In this document: positions 10,166 to 35,189 of the stretch, piece by piece
How positions within the stretch are numbered: position 1 is the stretch's first letter
Layout of the letters: each line of letters opens with the position of its first letter
Source: an uncultured bacterium
Lineage (GTDB): Bacteria > Cyanobacteriota > Vampirovibrionia > Gastranaerophilales > Gastranaerophilaceae
Length of the DNA: 44,871 nucleotides
NCBI GenBank assembly: GCA_902797575.1
Contig: CADBTL010000028.1
Location: forward strand, 1 to 44,871
Direction of reading: 5' to 3'
Made by a program: the position numbers and the translations under genes
The notes under the pieces: generated by a model
Told to the model about the DNA's origin: nothing
The model's input: only the letters and a program-made list of their open reading frames with translations
Databases searched by the model: none

Positions 10166-10276
10166 ATGTCAGAAAATAACCCACAATTGAATATGTTTGA
10201 AGTACCGAAGAATCGGCACTTTTGTATTGACAATTTATATTCAATTGCAGAAAATATTAAAAGCCGAAAAAAGTAG
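10166..10276 (+). CDS. Possible 36-aa leader peptide upstream of rpsE
   Basis: An ATG-to-TAG frame of 36 codons begins [16 protein letters not shown] and ends in a basic SRKK. It ends 34 nt before rpsE. No Shine-Dalgarno sequence precedes it. A TATACT box (10151-10156) sits 9 nt before the ATG, as at other possible leaderless genes here, but the -35 box is weak. The residue mix looks protein-like, yet the frame is short and no family is recognised. It may be a leader peptide or a chance frame. A small hairpin (CCGA/TCGG, about 10208-10219) lies inside it. Confidence 0.3.
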
Positions 10277-10310: not shown

Positions 10311-10967
10311 ATGTCTGAAGAAAAAATTGAAAATGTTACAGAAGAAGTTGTTGAAGAAACTGCTGAAGAAGTAACTGAAGAAAAAGCAGAAGTTGAAGAA
10401 GATGTAACAGAAGAAGTAGTTACAAAACTTCCTTCAAAGAAACAAAGAAACAGAAAGAAAAACGTTGAAACTCAAGAAGCAAAACCTGAGTCAGAATGGA
10501 AAGAACAAGTTGTTCAAATTAGCCGTGTAACAAAGGTTGTTAAGGGTGGTAAAAAATTGAGTTTCCGTGCTGTTGTTATTGTAGGTAACAAAAAAGGACA
10601 AGTTGGTGTAGGCTGTGCCAAAGCTGCTGAAGTTATCATTGCTATTCAAAAAGCTATTGCTGACGGAAGAAAGAACCTAATTACTGTTCCTATATTTAAG
10701 ACTACAATTCCTCATCCGATTGTGGGTCGTTCAGGTGCCGGTAAGGTAATGTTAAGACCTGCATCTCAAGGTACTGGTATTATTGCAGGTGGTGCAGTTC
10801 GTCCTGTTTTGGAACTTGCAGGTATTGAAAACATTTTAACAAAATCTCAAGGTTCAAAATCACCTCTTAATGCAGCATATGCTACAATGGATGCTCTTAA
10901 GTCTTTAAGAATGTTCTCTGATGTTGCTAAAAAACGTGGTTTAACAATGGCTGAGTTATTAAACTAA
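10311..10967 (+). CDS. rpsE: Ribosomal protein S5 with acidic N-terminal extension
   Basis: 30S subunit protein S5, involved in decoding accuracy and in mRNA unwinding at the entry site. The core (about residues 60-218) holds the double-stranded-RNA-binding part ([20 protein letters not shown]) and the C-terminal domain ([19 protein letters not shown]). It is 218 aa against about 165 in common S5 proteins. The extra is an N-terminal tail of about 35 mostly Glu/Val/Thr residues followed by a Lys/Arg-rich patch ([11 protein letters not shown]). The start at 10311 has AAAGG at 6 nt; an upstream TTG frame is rejected. It opens the rpsE-rpmD-rplO-secY run. Confidence 0.95.
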
Positions 10968-13247: not shown

Positions 13248-13643
13248 TTACAGCATATTTTTTCTGATTTTTTCTTTAGCTTTATCGATTTCTTTGATTC
13301 TTTTTTCAACTGAACGGACTTGTTTTTTTAATGCTGAACGCTCTGTTTTTATTAATTTATATTGAGCATCAATATCAGCATATTTTGTTTTTACGTTCAA
13401 TAATTCATTTCTGATATCAATTTGTGCATTATCAAGTTGCTGTATTGCATTTTGGATGTTTCCATTACCTGTTGCTTCAGTTTCTTGAATTGTATTAGCT
13501 GCTGAATTTGCTTTGTTTGATACAGTCGTTGTTGTTCCGTATGCTGTATCATTAAAGTTTAATGGTGTAAAAGCATTTCCATCGGCATATGCTAAGCCTG
13601 AAAGCATTGTTGCTGCACAAAGTGTTAAAACTAATTTTTTCAT
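13248..13643 (-). CDS. Exported coiled-coil protein, unknown function
   Basis: A 131-aa protein with a clear signal peptide (MKKLVLTLCAATMLSGLAYA, cleavage after AYA). A Ser/Thr/Asn-rich linker (about 25-55) and a Lys/Glu-rich coiled coil (about 60-131, KTERSALKKQVRSVEKRIKE) follow. It is probably periplasmic or surface exposed. No family is recognised. The start is set by the signal peptide and by an AGGAG about 8 nt upstream. It is divergent from the YkgJ-like gene, with an 84-nt shared promoter region. Confidence 0.65.
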   Translation of the reverse strand: MKKLVLTLCAATMLSGLAYADGNAFTPLNFNDTAYGTTTTVSNKANSAANTIQETEATGNGNIQNAIQQLDNAQIDIRNELLNVKTKYADIDAQYKLIKTERSALKKQVRSVEKRIKEIDKAKEKIRKNML

Positions 13644-13692: not shown

Positions 13693-13720
13693 TTCATACA
13701 TCCTATATAAAATGTATAAT
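13693..13720 (+). promoter_or_regulatory. Promoter for the YkgJ-like gene (leaderless type)
   Basis: TTCATA (13693-13698), a 16-nt spacer, then a consensus TATAAT (13715-13720). Only seven bases (TATACTC) separate the -10 box from the ATG, and there is no Shine-Dalgarno sequence. Transcription would begin at or next to the start codon. Confidence 0.55.
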
Positions 13721-13727
13721 TATACTC

Positions 13728-14180
13728 ATGGGTAACAAATTTTGTAAAAAATGTGGAGCATGCTGCAAACATATTATAATTGACAAGGAAAGAAAAATTA
13801 TCTGTTGGGATGCCGAATTACCATTGACTGAAGAATTTGAAGCAATGCTTTTTCCTGCAGATGAAGAAAATAATATTTATGCATGCCGTTTTTTAGTGAA
13901 TAATTTATGTACTAATCCTAATAGACCTGAGGTTTGCATAAATTATCCTTCTTTTCCTTTTGTTCAACTTCCCGAAAATTGCGGTTATGAAGGATATATC
14001 TTTGTGCAAAAAGAAAAATTAAAGCATAAGATAAGAAAATTAAAAGAAGAAATCTTGCATTATACTGTTTTAAGTGAAACCACCAATGATAAGCGTGAAA
14101 GACAGCAATATCAAAAAATTATAAATACTCATGTTAGATATATTGATAAATACAAGAATTATGGTTCTGACAATTGGTAA
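13728..14180 (+). CDS. YkgJ-family cysteine-cluster protein
   Basis: A 150-aa cytosolic protein of the YkgJ/UPF0153 zinc- or iron-binding family. The N-terminal CxxCxxCC is present (Cys6, Cys9, Cys12, Cys13). The family's later cysteines are also visible: Cys53, Cys61 and Cys70 in ACRFLVNNLCTNPNRPEVC, and Cys85. The C-terminal 50 residues are charged and helical. The biochemical role of the family is unknown. The gene lacks a ribosome binding site and has a TATAAT box seven nt before the ATG, so the mRNA may be leaderless. Confidence 0.85.
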   Translation: MGNKFCKKCGACCKHIIIDKERKIICWDAELPLTEEFEAMLFPADEENNIYACRFLVNNLCTNPNRPEVCINYPSFPFVQLPENCGYEGYIFVQKEKLKHKIRKLKEEILHYTVLSETTNDKRERQQYQKIINTHVRYIDKYKNYGSDNW

Positions 14181-14363: not shown

Positions 14364-15485
14364 TTACATCAAGTTTAGTAATGCTTTATGCAGCTTAACA
14401 TTATGTACTCTTAAATAATCTATTTTATTAATAAGCGTAAATGAAAGTGCAGCGCTAAGAGAATCTTTTAATCCGTTATCATGTTCTTTTATGCCTAACA
14501 AGCTTTTACGTGATAATCCGACCATAATCGGTGCGTTTAAAGAATGAAATTCTTCGATTCTGTTAAGTATTTCAAAATTATTTTCTCTTGTTTTACCAAA
14601 ACCAATTCCCGGATCAATAATAATATTATTAATACCCTTCTTTTGCGCAAATTCAATTTTTTCCTTAAGTTTAAAATAAATATCTTCTACAACGTTTTTA
14701 TACTGTGGATTTTCTTGCATTTTTCGGGGTATTCCATAAGAGTGTTGAATAATTATAGTGGCATTATATCTTGCAGTAACTTCAGCAATCTTGGTATCAT
14801 AGTCAAATCCGGATACGTCATTAATAATCTTTACTCCTCTGTCGAGAGCAAATTCTGCTACAATCGAGCTTCTTGTATCTATGCTGATAGGTGTTTTTAT
14901 TTTTTCTTCATTTATAAAATTTAATATTGGTTTCAGACGTTCTATTTGAACCTCAGGAGAGATTTCTTCTGAATATGGTCTTGTGCTTTCTGCTCCGATA
15001 TCAATTATATCTGCACCGTCTTCTATCAGTTTTATTAGATGTTTTTGCGCGTCTTCTATTTTGTAATATTCGCCTCCATCAGAAAACGAATCGGGTGTGA
15101 TATTGAGAATTCCGACAAGTTTAGTTTCATGGCTTTGCTGTTTTAATATTGAAAGTAAATTTTCTCCGAGTAAATTTAATTTAAAAGGCTGTGGTTTAAG
15201 TTTTTGAGCAATTTTTTTTATCTGAGATATGTTTCCGCATAATATTGCGTCAGATTTTTCAACCTTTCCTGTAATTACTTCTCTATGAGTGCCGCAGTCT
15301 GCTCCAACGCTTAATGCAAGTTGTTTAAGTATATTTGCTTGTGCCGGTGTTAGATTATAAATTTTAATGTTTTTATGTCTAAGTTTATCTGTAAATACAT
15401 TTCGATACCCTTCGTCAAAGCCTATTTGAAGAAGTTCTTCGGATAAATTATTGGATGTCAGTTCTTTTATTATAAATCGTTCCAT
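14364..15485 (-). CDS. folP: Dihydropteroate synthase with N-terminal extension
   Basis: Makes 7,8-dihydropteroate from the pterin diphosphate and p-aminobenzoate in folate synthesis; target of sulfonamides. Catalytic-core motifs are intact: NITPDSFSDGG (128-138), DIGAESTRP (162-170), a SIDTRS strand, IINDVSGF, the pterin-site DPGIGFGKT, and SRKSLLG near the C-terminus. It has about 115 residues before the core, making 373 aa against about 280 for minimal enzymes. Longer forms exist in other phyla. The gene has no obvious Shine-Dalgarno sequence; a TGTTAAAAT extended -10 lies six nt before the ATG. No other folate genes are adjacent. Confidence 0.93.
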   Translation of the reverse strand: MERFIIKELTSNNLSEELLQIGFDEGYRNVFTDKLRHKNIKIYNLTPAQANILKQLALSVGADCGTHREVITGKVEKSDAILCGNISQIKKIAQKLKPQPFKLNLLGENLLSILKQQSHETKLVGILNITPDSFSDGGEYYKIEDAQKHLIKLIEDGADIIDIGAESTRPYSEEISPEVQIERLKPILNFINEEKIKTPISIDTRSSIVAEFALDRGVKIINDVSGFDYDTKIAEVTARYNATIIIQHSYGIPRKMQENPQYKNVVEDIYFKLKEKIEFAQKKGINNIIIDPGIGFGKTRENNFEILNRIEEFHSLNAPIMVGLSRKSLLGIKEHDNGLKDSLSAALSFTLINKIDYLRVHNVKLHKALLNLM

Positions 15486-15491
15486 AAGTAA

Positions 15492-15500
15492 ATTTTAACA
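15492..15500 (-). promoter_or_regulatory. Extended -10 promoter of folP (leaderless type)
   Basis: On the minus strand TGTTAAAAT (15500-15492) fits an extended -10 (TGnTAAAAT). It is followed by TTACTT and the folP ATG. The -35 region is poor. The geometry implies a transcript starting at the ATG. Confidence 0.45.
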
Positions 15501-20494: not shown

Positions 20495-20523
20495 TTGTAA
20501 TCGCAAGTTAAAAATGTTAAAAT
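20495..20523 (+). promoter_or_regulatory. Promoter of the CgeB-like gene (short or no leader)
   Basis: TTGTAA (20495-20500), a 17-nt spacer and TAAAAT (20518-20523), preceded by TGT as an extended -10. The ATG follows after only 10 nt and no Shine-Dalgarno sequence is seen. Confidence 0.55.
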
Positions 20524-20533
20524 AAATCTTAGA

Positions 20534-21478
20534 ATGAGCAGAAAGAGTAAGAAAAAGATTTTAGCTATATTGCCCGAGAGTATTGGCGGAAGGCTTACGA
20601 CAAACAGTATAATCTCAGGTTTTACGCAAAATAATTGTCAAGTTCAAGTGTATGATGAGCTATTTGATAATAACTTGGATGAAGTGTTGGATAAAAAGTA
20701 TGATTATATTGCAGGATACGATTTTTCAGGGCTGAAAATAAAGGTAGACAATAAGTTATCAATACCTTCAATTAATTATTTTTCTGATGATATAAGAAGT
20801 AATACTTCCGGAAAAGAATGGAAAAAATATTTGCCGTATTTGGAAGACGATGACAATTATACATTTTATTGGGATCGGCAGCTTACAGAATATGAGAATA
20901 TTAAAAATTTACACTATCTTCCTCATTTTGTTGATTTTGATATTTATAAAGATATGGGAAATGAACCTGAATTTGATTTAATGTTTGCAGGACGTTTAGA
21001 TACAAATTACAGGCTAAACTTTTTTGAAGAACTTGTTTTAAAAATGCCTCATCTAAAAGTAGCTTGGTATGCAATAGATAGACACTATAGGGATGCAAGA
21101 GGACGCTCAGAATATCCTGAAATAATAGATTTGTGTTATATGGGATTTATTGATAATGAACCTGAGATGGCAAGGGCAATTAATAACACGAAAATAGTAT
21201 TTAATATGCATTCTCAAGGTCTTACATCTTTAAATTACAGAACCTTCCAAACCGTAGCTTGCAAAAGGTTAATGATTACAGACTATAGGGATGAATTAGC
21301 TTTGTTTGAAGGGTATATGCCATTTTATGAAGATATGTCTGACTTAATTTTTAAGATTGAAAATTATCTTGACGATAAAGAAGCATATAAAACTATTACG
21401 GAAAATTGCTACAAAATAGCAAAACAAAGCCACAATTCTAAGGATTGCATAAGATATTTATTGAGCGTTATAAAGTAA
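20534..21478 (+). CDS. CgeB-like glycosyltransferase
   Basis: A 314-aa soluble glycosyltransferase with a GT-B-like layout. The C-terminal Glyco_trans_1_2/CgeB signature is clear: SLNYRTFQTVACKRLMITDY, then FYEDMSDLIFKIENYLDD. The central LMFAGRLDTNYRLNFFEEL strand matches the start of the second Rossmann half. The N-terminal half is DUF3880-like (KKKILAILPESIGG). Such proteins sit in surface-glycan or spore-coat loci; donor and acceptor are unknown. It is close to the decayed glycan genes but separated by a tRNA. It is convergent with tyrA, with two nt between the genes. Confidence 0.75.
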   Translation: MSRKSKKKILAILPESIGGRLTTNSIISGFTQNNCQVQVYDELFDNNLDEVLDKKYDYIAGYDFSGLKIKVDNKLSIPSINYFSDDIRSNTSGKEWKKYLPYLEDDDNYTFYWDRQLTEYENIKNLHYLPHFVDFDIYKDMGNEPEFDLMFAGRLDTNYRLNFFEELVLKMPHLKVAWYAIDRHYRDARGRSEYPEIIDLCYMGFIDNEPEMARAINNTKIVFNMHSQGLTSLNYRTFQTVACKRLMITDYRDELALFEGYMPFYEDMSDLIFKIENYLDDKEAYKTITENCYKIAKQSHNSKDCIRYLLSVIK

Positions 21479-28588: not shown

Positions 28589-29254
28589 TTACTTCATATA
28601 TTTAGCAATTTCCAACTGAATCGTATTTGCTCTGGCTATATACTTGGTAAGTTGTTCATATTTTTCACCGGCTTCTCCGTATGGATATTTATTTTTTATA
28701 AGCTCATCAACATTTTTATTTATGCTTTCAAGCATATTAAGAGAATTTCTTATTGTAATAAAATTTATCAGCTTTTTAGGAAGCTTTGATGCAACTTTCG
28801 TTTCCAAAAATTTAAAAAATTTGTCTAAACCGCTTTCTTGAGATTCTTTTTTTGAAGTTAATTTACCTGATATTTTTGCAGACAAACTTGCATCTTTATA
28901 TACTGTAGTTAGGTTTTTTAAATCTTTTTCCATCTGTAATTTTTGTGCGGTTAAATCTAAAACCAATTGTTCATCTTTAATCTCTTCGGCAGTTTTTAGT
29001 TGTTCATTTAGTTCCTTTATTTTAGATTCTGCACGAGTTATTTTATATTCAAGTTTAAAAAGAGTGTCCTGAACGTCTCTATATGCGCCTTCTTGCAGGA
29101 TATTTGAATCATAATCGTTTAAGTGTCTCAAAGGTTCCGGAGTTGAAACCGGCACAGAAACCGCATCCGAATTTAAGAAAAAATTATTCTTTTTCGTTGT
29201 TAAGTCGGATATTACGTCAGAGCTTCTTGTATTTGAGAATTTATCGCTATTCAT
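28589..29254 (-). CDS. Coiled-coil protein downstream of csrA (221 aa)
   Basis: No family recognised. A Ser/Asn/Thr-rich, probably disordered N-terminus (1-50) precedes a long coiled coil (about 65-125: YKITRAESKIKELNEQLKTA, then AQKLQMEKDLKNL). A helical C-terminus follows (KFFKFLETKVASKLPKKLI). It is soluble. The ATG at 29254 is used; a TTG at 29269 lies upstream. There is no Shine-Dalgarno sequence, but a near-consensus promoter inside the preceding gene places the transcript start at this ATG. It is the last gene of the fliW-csrA cluster and may have both operon and private transcription. Confidence 0.65.
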   Translation of the reverse strand: MNSDKFSNTRSSDVISDLTTKKNNFFLNSDAVSVPVSTPEPLRHLNDYDSNILQEGAYRDVQDTLFKLEYKITRAESKIKELNEQLKTAEEIKDEQLVLDLTAQKLQMEKDLKNLTTVYKDASLSAKISGKLTSKKESQESGLDKFFKFLETKVASKLPKKLINFITIRNSLNMLESINKNVDELIKNKYPYGEAGEKYEQLTKYIARANTIQLEIAKYMK

Positions 29255-29260
29255 ATCGTG

Positions 29261-29289
29261 ATTATACAATCAAAAATTTATTTCTTCAA
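29261..29289 (-). promoter_or_regulatory. Internal promoter within the preceding gene
   Basis: On the minus strand TTGAAG (29289-29284), exactly 17 nt, then a consensus TATAAT (29266-29261). Six bases later comes the ATG at 29254. The boxes overlap the last codons of the TPR-like gene. This is the best leaderless promoter in the window. Confidence 0.65.
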
Positions 29290-32493: not shown

Positions 32494-33798
32494 CTATAAG
32501 AGTTCAATAATCCTTTCAAACTTCATGCTGCGTGAAGCCTTTAAAAATAATGTAGTTCCGTCTTTTATTTCTGATTTTATATATGGAACGGCATCTTCTA
32601 TAGTATTAAAGTGGGCAGTTTTACATTTACTGATGGAATCTGTTATATTTGCTGAAAGATTACCTATTGATATAATAATTGTGTTTTTATCGATGTTATT
32701 CTTGTTATTTATGTATTCTCCAAGTTGTTTATGATACTTTATTTCGTCATTACCCAGTTCTCCCATATCGCCCAAAATCAGGGCATAATTTTTGTAATGT
32801 TCAAAAATGGTGTCTATAAAAGCCCTCATTGATTCAGGGTTTGCATTGTAGCTGTCATTAATTATCTTTATTCCGTGAATATCTACGGCTTCCCAACGTT
32901 TTTCAATAGGCTTGTATTTTTTTAATCCATCTTGTATTTGGTCAATTGTTAACCCTAATTGAATTCCGACATTAATTGCAGAAAGAGCATTCTCTATATT
33001 ATAATCTCCGCCTACATTTAACTCGTATGGATTCCCTTTATATTCAAATTTTGAATAATTTGCACTCTTTTCTACCACCGTAACATTTTTTATTGAATAA
33101 AATATTTTGTCACCATCAAATTTAACGGTATTTTTAATAAGCTCATCATCATGAGCTATAAAAGTATTGCCGCGCTGATATGAAACTATTTCACACTTTG
33201 CTTTTGCAATATTTTCTCTTGAACCCAGTCTTCCTATGTGTGCGGTTCCTACATTGGAAATGACTGTAATATCCGGCTCGGAATATTTCGAAAGCAATTC
33301 AATCTCGCCTAAGCCTCTCATGCCCATTTCCAGAACGAGTACTTCTGTATCATCAGGCATTTCAAATATAGTTTGACAAAATCCGATTTCGTTGTTGTGA
33401 TTGAGCGGTGTTTTATAAGTTTTATATTTTTCGCTTAAAACAGATGCTATTAGCTCTTTTGTGGTGGTTTTACCGGAACTTCCCGTAACTGCAATTACTG
33501 TAGGATTTAATATTTTCCTTCTGTGGTTTGCAAGTTGGAGATATGCTGTAAGCGTGTCAGGCACCTTTAGCATTAATGCATTAATATTATAATCTTGAGT
33601 ACAAAAAGTACCAACAGCTCCTTTTTCTATTGCTTGAGAGATAAATTTTTCTCCGTCAAAGGAGGTTCCTTTAAGCGGTAAATAAAAGTCTCCATTTTTA
33701 ATGGTTCTTGTATCAGTTGAAATACTTACATCTCTATTTATATCAATATTCCCAAAAACTTCCGCATTAGTAACTTTAGCAATCTCTTTTATATTCAT
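32494..33798 (-). CDS. murF: UDP-MurNAc-tripeptide-D-Ala-D-Ala ligase
   Basis: A 434-aa cytosolic Mur ligase that completes the UDP-MurNAc-pentapeptide with D-Ala-D-Ala. The ATP loop TGSSGKTTT is at 105-113; the LNHNNEIGFCQTIF and VLEMGMRGLGEIELL segments are typical of MurF; the C-terminal domain has INDSYNANPESMRA and LGDMGELG. The ATG at 33798 follows GAGG; an ATG 18 nt earlier is less suited. It is divergent from mnmE across a 59-nt gap. Other mur genes are absent. Confidence 0.94.
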   Translation of the reverse strand: MNIKEIAKVTNAEVFGNIDINRDVSISTDTRTIKNGDFYLPLKGTSFDGEKFISQAIEKGAVGTFCTQDYNINALMLKVPDTLTAYLQLANHRRKILNPTVIAVTGSSGKTTTKELIASVLSEKYKTYKTPLNHNNEIGFCQTIFEMPDDTEVLVLEMGMRGLGEIELLSKYSEPDITVISNVGTAHIGRLGSRENIAKAKCEIVSYQRGNTFIAHDDELIKNTVKFDGDKIFYSIKNVTVVEKSANYSKFEYKGNPYELNVGGDYNIENALSAINVGIQLGLTIDQIQDGLKKYKPIEKRWEAVDIHGIKIINDSYNANPESMRAFIDTIFEHYKNYALILGDMGELGNDEIKYHKQLGEYINNKNNIDKNTIIISIGNLSANITDSISKCKTAHFNTIEDAVPYIKSEIKDGTTLFLKASRSMKFERIIELL

Positions 33799-33857
33799 TT
33801 TCCACCTCTTTTGCATGCTTAATTATACTTTGAACTTTTTTGATATACAATTATTTT

Positions 33858-35189
33858 ATGAATGTTTTAGATGAATTTGATACTATAGCTGCTATTTCAA
33901 CTCCAATCGGAACCGGTGGTGTAGGTGTTATTCGTATATCCGGAGATAATGCTTTTGATATTATTCAAAAGATTTTTACAAATCCAAAGTTTGAACCAAG
34001 AAAATTTAATCATGGCTGGATTATCGAAAATGAAACAAAAATAGATGAAGTTATTGTTTTACCGTTTTTTGCGCCCAATAGTTATACTGGTGAAAACGTT
34101 ATAGAAATTCAATGTCATGGCGGTATAAATGTTGTAAGAAATATTCTTAACCTTGTTTTAAAGAACGGTGCACGAATGGCTGAAAAAGGTGAGTTTACAA
34201 AACGAGCTTTTTTGAATAAAAGAATGGATTTGTCTCAAGCAGAATCAGTTGCTGATATAATACATTCAAAAACTTCGAGCTTTGCAAAAGCTTCTGCTAA
34301 AAATCTTTCGGGTGTATTAAAAAATAAAATTGATAATATACGTAACACTATTTTTGAAGTTTTATCCAAAATAACTGCCGGAATTGATTTCCCTGAAGAT
34401 GTTAGAGAACCTGAATATGAGTACTTAATTGACTCATTTGAGAAAATACTATCATCAATCGATTCAGTTCTTTTAGGCGCTGATACGTCTAATATCTTTA
34501 GACAAGGGGCTTCTGTCGCAATAGTTGGTAAACCAAATGTCGGAAAATCTTCCCTTTTTAATGCTCTTTTAAATCTTGATAGAGCAATTGTAACAGATAT
34601 AGCAGGAACAACTCGTGATGTGTTGCGAGAAACGCTTGATTTAGGAATACCTGTTACACTTGTTGATACTGCAGGCATTAGGGATGAAGGAGATAATAAG
34701 GTTGAGCAAATAGGAATAGAATACTCTAAACAGACCCTTGAAGAAGCTGATTTGGTTCTATTTGTATATGATGCGTCAGCAGGAATTAATGATGAAGATA
34801 AAGAAGTCATAGAGCTTTTAAAAGGGAAGAAGTATCTTCTTATTGCTAATAAATCTGATTTGGTTGCTGATAAAAATGACGATGCTATATATATTTCTGC
34901 AAAATCCGGAGAAGGTGTAAGCGAATTAAAACAAAAATTGTCGCAAAAAGTTTGTGATATTAATCCTGAGAATTTAGAATTTGTGACCAACACTCGCCAA
35001 CAAGAATGCCTAAAAAAAGCTCGTAATTCAATAGAACAAGCATTGCTTGCTTCGCAACTAAGAGAATTACAAGATTTGATATCAATTGATGTAAAATCTG
35101 CAATACTTGCTCTTGATGAACTTACAGGCGAATTAATTACAGATGACATTTTGAATAATATCTTTGATAACTTTTGTATAGGAAAATAG
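33858..35189 (+). CDS. mnmE: tRNA modification GTPase MnmE
   Basis: A 443-aa GTPase that works with MnmG to modify U34 of tRNAs. The N-terminal formyl-THF domain (1-115) and helical domain are present. The G-domain has G1 GKPNVGKS (224-231), switch TTRD, DTAGIR (270-275) and NKSD. The C-terminus ends with the essential CIGK. The length is normal. The ATG at 33858 is chosen because family homology starts at EFDTIAAISTPIG. There is no Shine-Dalgarno sequence; a TATACA box lies eight nt upstream, so this may be another leaderless gene, although the -35 is poor. Confidence 0.95.
   Translation: MNVLDEFDTIAAISTPIGTGGVGVIRISGDNAFDIIQKIFTNPKFEPRKFNHGWIIENETKIDEVIVLPFFAPNSYTGENVIEIQCHGGINVVRNILNLVLKNGARMAEKGEFTKRAFLNKRMDLSQAESVADIIHSKTSSFAKASAKNLSGVLKNKIDNIRNTIFEVLSKITAGIDFPEDVREPEYEYLIDSFEKILSSIDSVLLGADTSNIFRQGASVAIVGKPNVGKSSLFNALLNLDRAIVTDIAGTTRDVLRETLDLGIPVTLVDTAGIRDEGDNKVEQIGIEYSKQTLEEADLVLFVYDASAGINDEDKEVIELLKGKKYLLIANKSDLVADKNDDAIYISAKSGEGVSELKQKLSQKVCDINPENLEFVTNTRQQECLKKARNSIEQALLASQLRELQDLISIDVKSAILALDELTGELITDDILNNIFDNFCIGK

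Follow-up and report, generated by a model that had tools for sequence, protein, structure and literature searches.

Several genes in the window (the whole stretch of DNA analysed, 44,871 nucleotides) carry a -10 box six or seven nucleotides before the ATG and lack a Shine-Dalgarno (SD) site. The geometry of these promoters, their excess over chance, their conservation and the absence of SD sites lead us to read them, with a probability of about 0.9, as ordinary sigma-70-type promoters at which transcription would start at, or about one base from, the A of the AUG. The observation holds for five of the six loci that an earlier note on this DNA had named, and at four of these (the ykgJ-like gene, folP, a coiled-coil gene and mnmE) the distance is 6-7 nt (Table 1). 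By its SecY, whose relatives reach 97% identity, the host belongs to the Gastranaerophilales, non-photosynthetic relatives of cyanobacteria (PMC4040986); its genome is 1.83 Mb in 166 contigs, with a GC content of 32% in a 491 kb sample.

Table 1. Start regions, genes and the leader RNA discussed in the text, in window coordinates
Feature	Position	Strand	Details
Apparent 5' leader RNA, conserved, of the rpsE-L30-L15-secY operon	10168..10247	+	GTCAGAAAA..AACCCAC; stem 10184-10194 with 10237-10247
ykgJ promoter	13693..13727	+	TTCATA 13693-13698, N16, TATAAT 13715-13720, gap TATACTC (7 nt), ATG 13728
ykgJ-like gene, 150 aa	13728..14180	+	CxxCxxCC, putative zinc- or iron-chelating domain; Pfam PF03692, E=6e-6
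folP, dihydropteroate synthase	14364..15485	-	Pterin_bind, E=6e-67; TIGR01496 above cut-off
folP start	15483..15500	-	TGT 15500-15498, -10 TAAAAT 15497-15492, 6-nt gap, ATG 15485-15483
CgeB-like gene start	20495..20536	+	-35 TTGTAA 20495-20500, N17, TG-extended TAAAAT 20518-20523, 10 nt, ATG 20534
Coiled-coil gene start	29252..29289	-	TTGAAG 29289-29284, N17, TATAAT 29266-29261, 6-nt gap, ATG 29254-29252
murF/mnmE intergenic region, 59 bp	33799..33857	.	Divergent starts; murF (-) start 33798, SD-led here
mnmE start	33846..33860	+	-10 TACAAT 33846-33851, 6-nt gap, ATG 33858

RNA polymerase carrying sigma-70 begins transcription some 7 nt downstream of the -10 hexamer, preferably at a purine that follows a pyrimidine. 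With a gap of 6 nt whose last base, next to the ATG, is T, +1 would therefore fall on the A of that codon. A messenger made from such a box would begin with AUG, would leave no room for an SD site and would presumably be translated by the leaderless route, in which the ribosome binds a 5'-terminal AUG; most other genes would use SD-led initiation. Both the exact 5' end of the RNA and this route of translation are what we infer from the sequence.

The strings reported upstream of the ykgJ-like gene (TTCATA-N16-TATAAT, seven bases from the ATG), of folP (-10 box TAAAAT, 6 nt) and of the coiled-coil gene (TTGAAG-N17-TATAAT, 6 nt) lie where the earlier note had placed them, and none of the three genes, read by eye, has an SD site. 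Their distances recur in orthologues. The folP gap, followed through the window's genus and its family, is 6 nt in 57/66 orthologues and 7 nt in 7/66, with the promoter reading TTGTTA-N17-TGCTAARCT in other genera; in distant families, several folP orthologues have other or SD-like upstream regions. The coiled-coil gene has a gap of 6 nt in 20 of 30 orthologues and of 7 nt in 9, and the ykgJ-like gene one of 6-8 nt in 10 of 11, with a block, CATCCTATATTAAATGTATAAT, conserved in the orthologues of the genus. The mnmE gene (NF003661 and TIGR00450, both above cut-off) had been listed as a weaker case. Its box and its lack of an SD site stand, and the weakness does not: the gap is exactly 6 nt in each of the 42 orthologues, which come from the genus of the window and from further genera of its family; this makes mnmE a strong case. 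At 16 of these 42 loci a terminator-like hairpin and its T-run come to an end 18-30 nt upstream of the ATG. This leaves no room for a leader or for an earlier promoter: the 5' end of a normally leadered mRNA would fall within or ahead of that terminator. The bases within the gap vary freely (pairwise identity of the last 6 nt is 0.36-0.45 in the sets measured); it is the distance that is conserved.

To place these loci in a wider setting we used 491 kb of the window's genome, in which a simple gene caller found 446 genes, 444 of them scored from the 5'-most ATG; starts outside the orthologue sets are those of the caller. Chance was gauged with 300 dinucleotide shuffles, with intergenic ATGs that are not starts and with decoy offsets. 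Exact TATAAT at -13 to -11 occurs in 16/444 genes against 3.6±1.8 in the shuffles (maximum 9 of 300) and 1.9 per 444 at intergenic non-start ATGs. A second genome of the same genus (G005, 345 genes) has 14 matches against 2.1±1.4, 13 of them at -12, a peak of one base in width. A genome from another family of the order has 8/362 against 1.5 expected. Counts also exceed those at decoy offsets in the three genomes. The equally AT-rich, SD-using megaplasmid of Ligilactobacillus salivarius (Lactobacillaceae) has no TATAAT at these positions in 219 genes. Deinococcus deserti plasmid 1, taken as a positive control from a clade known for leaderless genes, shows a peak at the same offset, where TAnnnT stands in 12/136 genes against 2.5. 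With one mismatch allowed, or with a matrix trained on the folP and coiled-coil orthologues, the excess in the two genomes of the genus amounts to about 2-7% of genes. The lack of any excess over shuffled upstream regions had been named in advance as refuting the claim; such an excess is present, both in the genome of the window and in those of two relatives. So is the coexistence of two initiation signals borne out, an SD-like core being found in 59% of genes beside TATAAT at -13 to -11 above chance. We infer that SD-led and leaderless initiation coexist in this genus and that, going by the signal, about 2-7% of genes are leaderless.

These figures also bear on the idea that the boxes are chance matches in AT-rich DNA, to which we give almost no credence. 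Some of the matches must be random, as the shuffle mean of 3.6 against 16 indicates, and TAnnnT alone is not in excess in the AT-rich genomes, where only the TATAAT-like box is enriched; against this stand the counts above those of shuffles and of decoy offsets in the three genomes and the unvarying spacing in the mnmE orthologues. For mnmE, folP, the ykgJ-like gene and the coiled-coil gene, chance can be regarded as already refuted by conservation.

Other marks of a promoter, independent of how the sites were selected, were sought in 60 genes with a box at -12, pooled from the three genomes. A TTG separated from the box by exactly 17 nt is seen in 10/60, where hexamers in coding sequence would predict about 1.2, and a TGn extension is found in 25/60; -35 boxes are often weak. 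By this -35 element at 17 nt and the TG extension, the box qualifies as a predicted part of a sigma-70 promoter. An SD core is found in none of the 60, compared with 49% of all genes, a difference that is partly trivial, as the box fills the SD position. The base at -1 is T in 85-86% of the -12-box genes and in 42-51% of SD genes (P=0.0025 and 2e-5 in the two genomes of the genus); the preference is less marked in the other family (75% against 44%, P=0.07). Genes bearing the box are rarely found inside operons: a same-strand upstream gene lies within 25 nt of only 1/28 high-scoring box genes, against 175/534 SD genes, in the three genomes.

A different reading of the same strings is that these genes have leaders but no SD site, the TATAAT-like string acting as an A/U-rich translation enhancer, unstructured or S1-binding, with the promoter further upstream. 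The genome is AT-rich, and in several phyla the region from -20 to -10 of non-SD genes is biased towards A and T, which might be a trace of S1 binding (PMC5397173). An enhancer, however, needs no position fixed to a single base, no -35 element at 17 nt and no TG extension; moreover, the AT-rich SD-using control is without a peak, and terminator-like hairpins lie directly upstream of the box at the 16 mnmE loci described above. We consider an enhancer of this kind improbable.

The starts themselves could be misplaced, so that transcription begins at the boxes and translation at a later in-frame codon behind a normal leader. This is true of one gene in the window. The minus-strand gene at 32494-33816 is murF, and its ATG at 33816, 5 nt from a TATAAT, was rejected as the start, because the orthologues begin 18 nt later behind an SD-like AGAGG. 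At the other loci such an error is very unlikely. ATG 13728 is the first ATG, GTG or TTG in the ykgJ frame, and it is fixed because the cysteine motif (CxxCGxCC) begins at residue 6; the folP and mnmE orthologues align from residue 1, with 50-80% identity, and have no later conserved ATG behind an SD site.

From its corrected start, murF in the window is SD-led, with a -10 box about 23 nt upstream, and in some relatives the box lies 6 nt from the ATG. Four relatives have the start codons of murF and mnmE 42 bp apart and both boxes at 6 nt, and therefore in these four the two promoters must overlap. The gene shows what appears to be turnover of the initiation mode within one genus.

Two of the named loci departed from the simple leaderless picture. 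At the CgeB-like gene the TTGTAA-N17-TAAAAT string is in place 10 nt before the ATG, as described; a strictly leaderless start, with the box 6-7 nt away, was not found there, and the spacing is 8-11 nt in 26/30 orthologues. The length of the N-terminus varies among these proteins, and since the spacing is kept nonetheless, the start codon follows the promoter. The gene probably has a very short leader, of about 2-5 nt, rather than none. A 36-aa frame at 10166, also proposed as leaderless, had to be given up as a gene: its start codon is not conserved, the ATG being GGG, CTG, AAG or TTG in relatives, and conservation is at the level of nucleotides and not of codons.

The frame lies at the 5' end of a conserved element that seems to be a 5' leader RNA belonging to the rpsE-L30-L15-secY operon. 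This element starts directly downstream of a -10-like region, occurs once in the genome, has no match in Rfam, and is conserved and covarying in about 70 Gastranaerophilales loci. RNAalifold gave no structure from a long, gappy alignment of the S5 leader and gave one from the trimmed alignment; helix 1 consists of 11 pairs, in which 95.6% of the cells are paired, and the covariation score of the whole structure is 0.273, against 0.170±0.012 in shuffled alignments (0/500 as high) and at most 0.129 in slid controls. The element is perhaps an autoregulatory site for ribosomal protein, as a candidate. Ribosomal protein S5 (10311-10967) is extended at its N-terminus by about 60 residues rich in glutamate, and the gene ahead of it encodes an SPFH/Band 7 protein, so that the spc operon does not keep its usual L18-S5 order in the window.

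Further features were seen at two of the start regions. Upstream of the ykgJ-like gene, a block, ATCCTATATTAAATGTATAAT (13699-13720, which includes the -10 box), is nearly invariant in the genus, and the proteins are only about 48% identical; it may be the site of a regulator or belong to the promoter of a divergent gene on the minus strand (13248-13643), which is itself conserved. In other genera of the family (for example at the loci L315, L317 and L326), folP carries an inverted repeat with the consensus AAAATCGTGC-N14-GCACGATTTT and arms of up to 13 bp, which spans the -10 box together with the first codons (MHDF). The repeat has exact matches in 7/59 genomes, one in each, and those checked by coordinates sit at folP. 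The repeat looks like a candidate operator overlapping a putatively leaderless start. The dihydropteroate synthase itself has about 120 extra N-terminal residues ahead of the pterin-binding domain, and these are conserved in relatives.

Genes of this kind have been described before. Zheng et al. (2011) defined TA-led genes, which carry a Pribnow-like box some 12 bp ahead of the start codon, lack an SD site and were read as leaderless; in low-GC genomes the box is TAtAAT with a TG extension, and no leaderless genes were found in Lactobacillus (PMC3160421). The Gastranaerophilales genes have in common with these the position of the box, the absence of an SD site and the TAtAAT with its TG extension; the present analysis adds to that survey that single genes are conserved to one base from genus to genus. 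In Deinococcus and Actinobacteria more than 20% of genes are of this kind, with a loose TAnnnT (PMC3160421), whereas the share here is about 2-7%, with the full TATAAT; the offset of the peak is the same in the Deinococcus deserti control. In Synechococcus elongatus UTEX 2973, 19 leaderless transcripts were detected by mapping of transcription start sites (PMC6091082), a likewise small number. Unlike the Gastranaerophilales, the photosynthetic cyanobacteria examined have no conserved box next to the mnmE start. A motif pairing with SD sites was also looked for on the ribosomal side: the anti-SD pattern was absent from 38 genomes, but 16S rRNA itself is lacking or incomplete in almost all of the 28 tested, so we draw no conclusion from the absence. 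The mechanism is one already known in other bacteria. The list of bacterial groups with leaderless genes in Zheng et al. omits Cyanobacteria and Gastranaerophilales (PMC3160421), and among open-licence papers we found no report that treats leaderless genes, Shine-Dalgarno sites and Melainabacteria together; for the Gastranaerophilales it is unreported in the literature searched.

Leaderless initiation might itself be under selection in a fixed set of genes: in mnmE and folP many genera share the layout to the base, and the neighbouring murF switches within one genus. We hold such selection to be unlikely. If it were true, group control of such genes through the route of initiation could arise, for instance when initiation factors or small subunits are limiting. 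For the annotation of the Gastranaerophilales, an order abundant in gut and rumen, the consequence is that gene finders which expect an SD site can misplace starts. The murF/mnmE locus offers a natural pair, in which murF switches its initiation mode within the genus and mnmE does not, and the conserved cases lend themselves to tests of leaderless translation in a lineage that borders the cyanobacteria and is little cultured.
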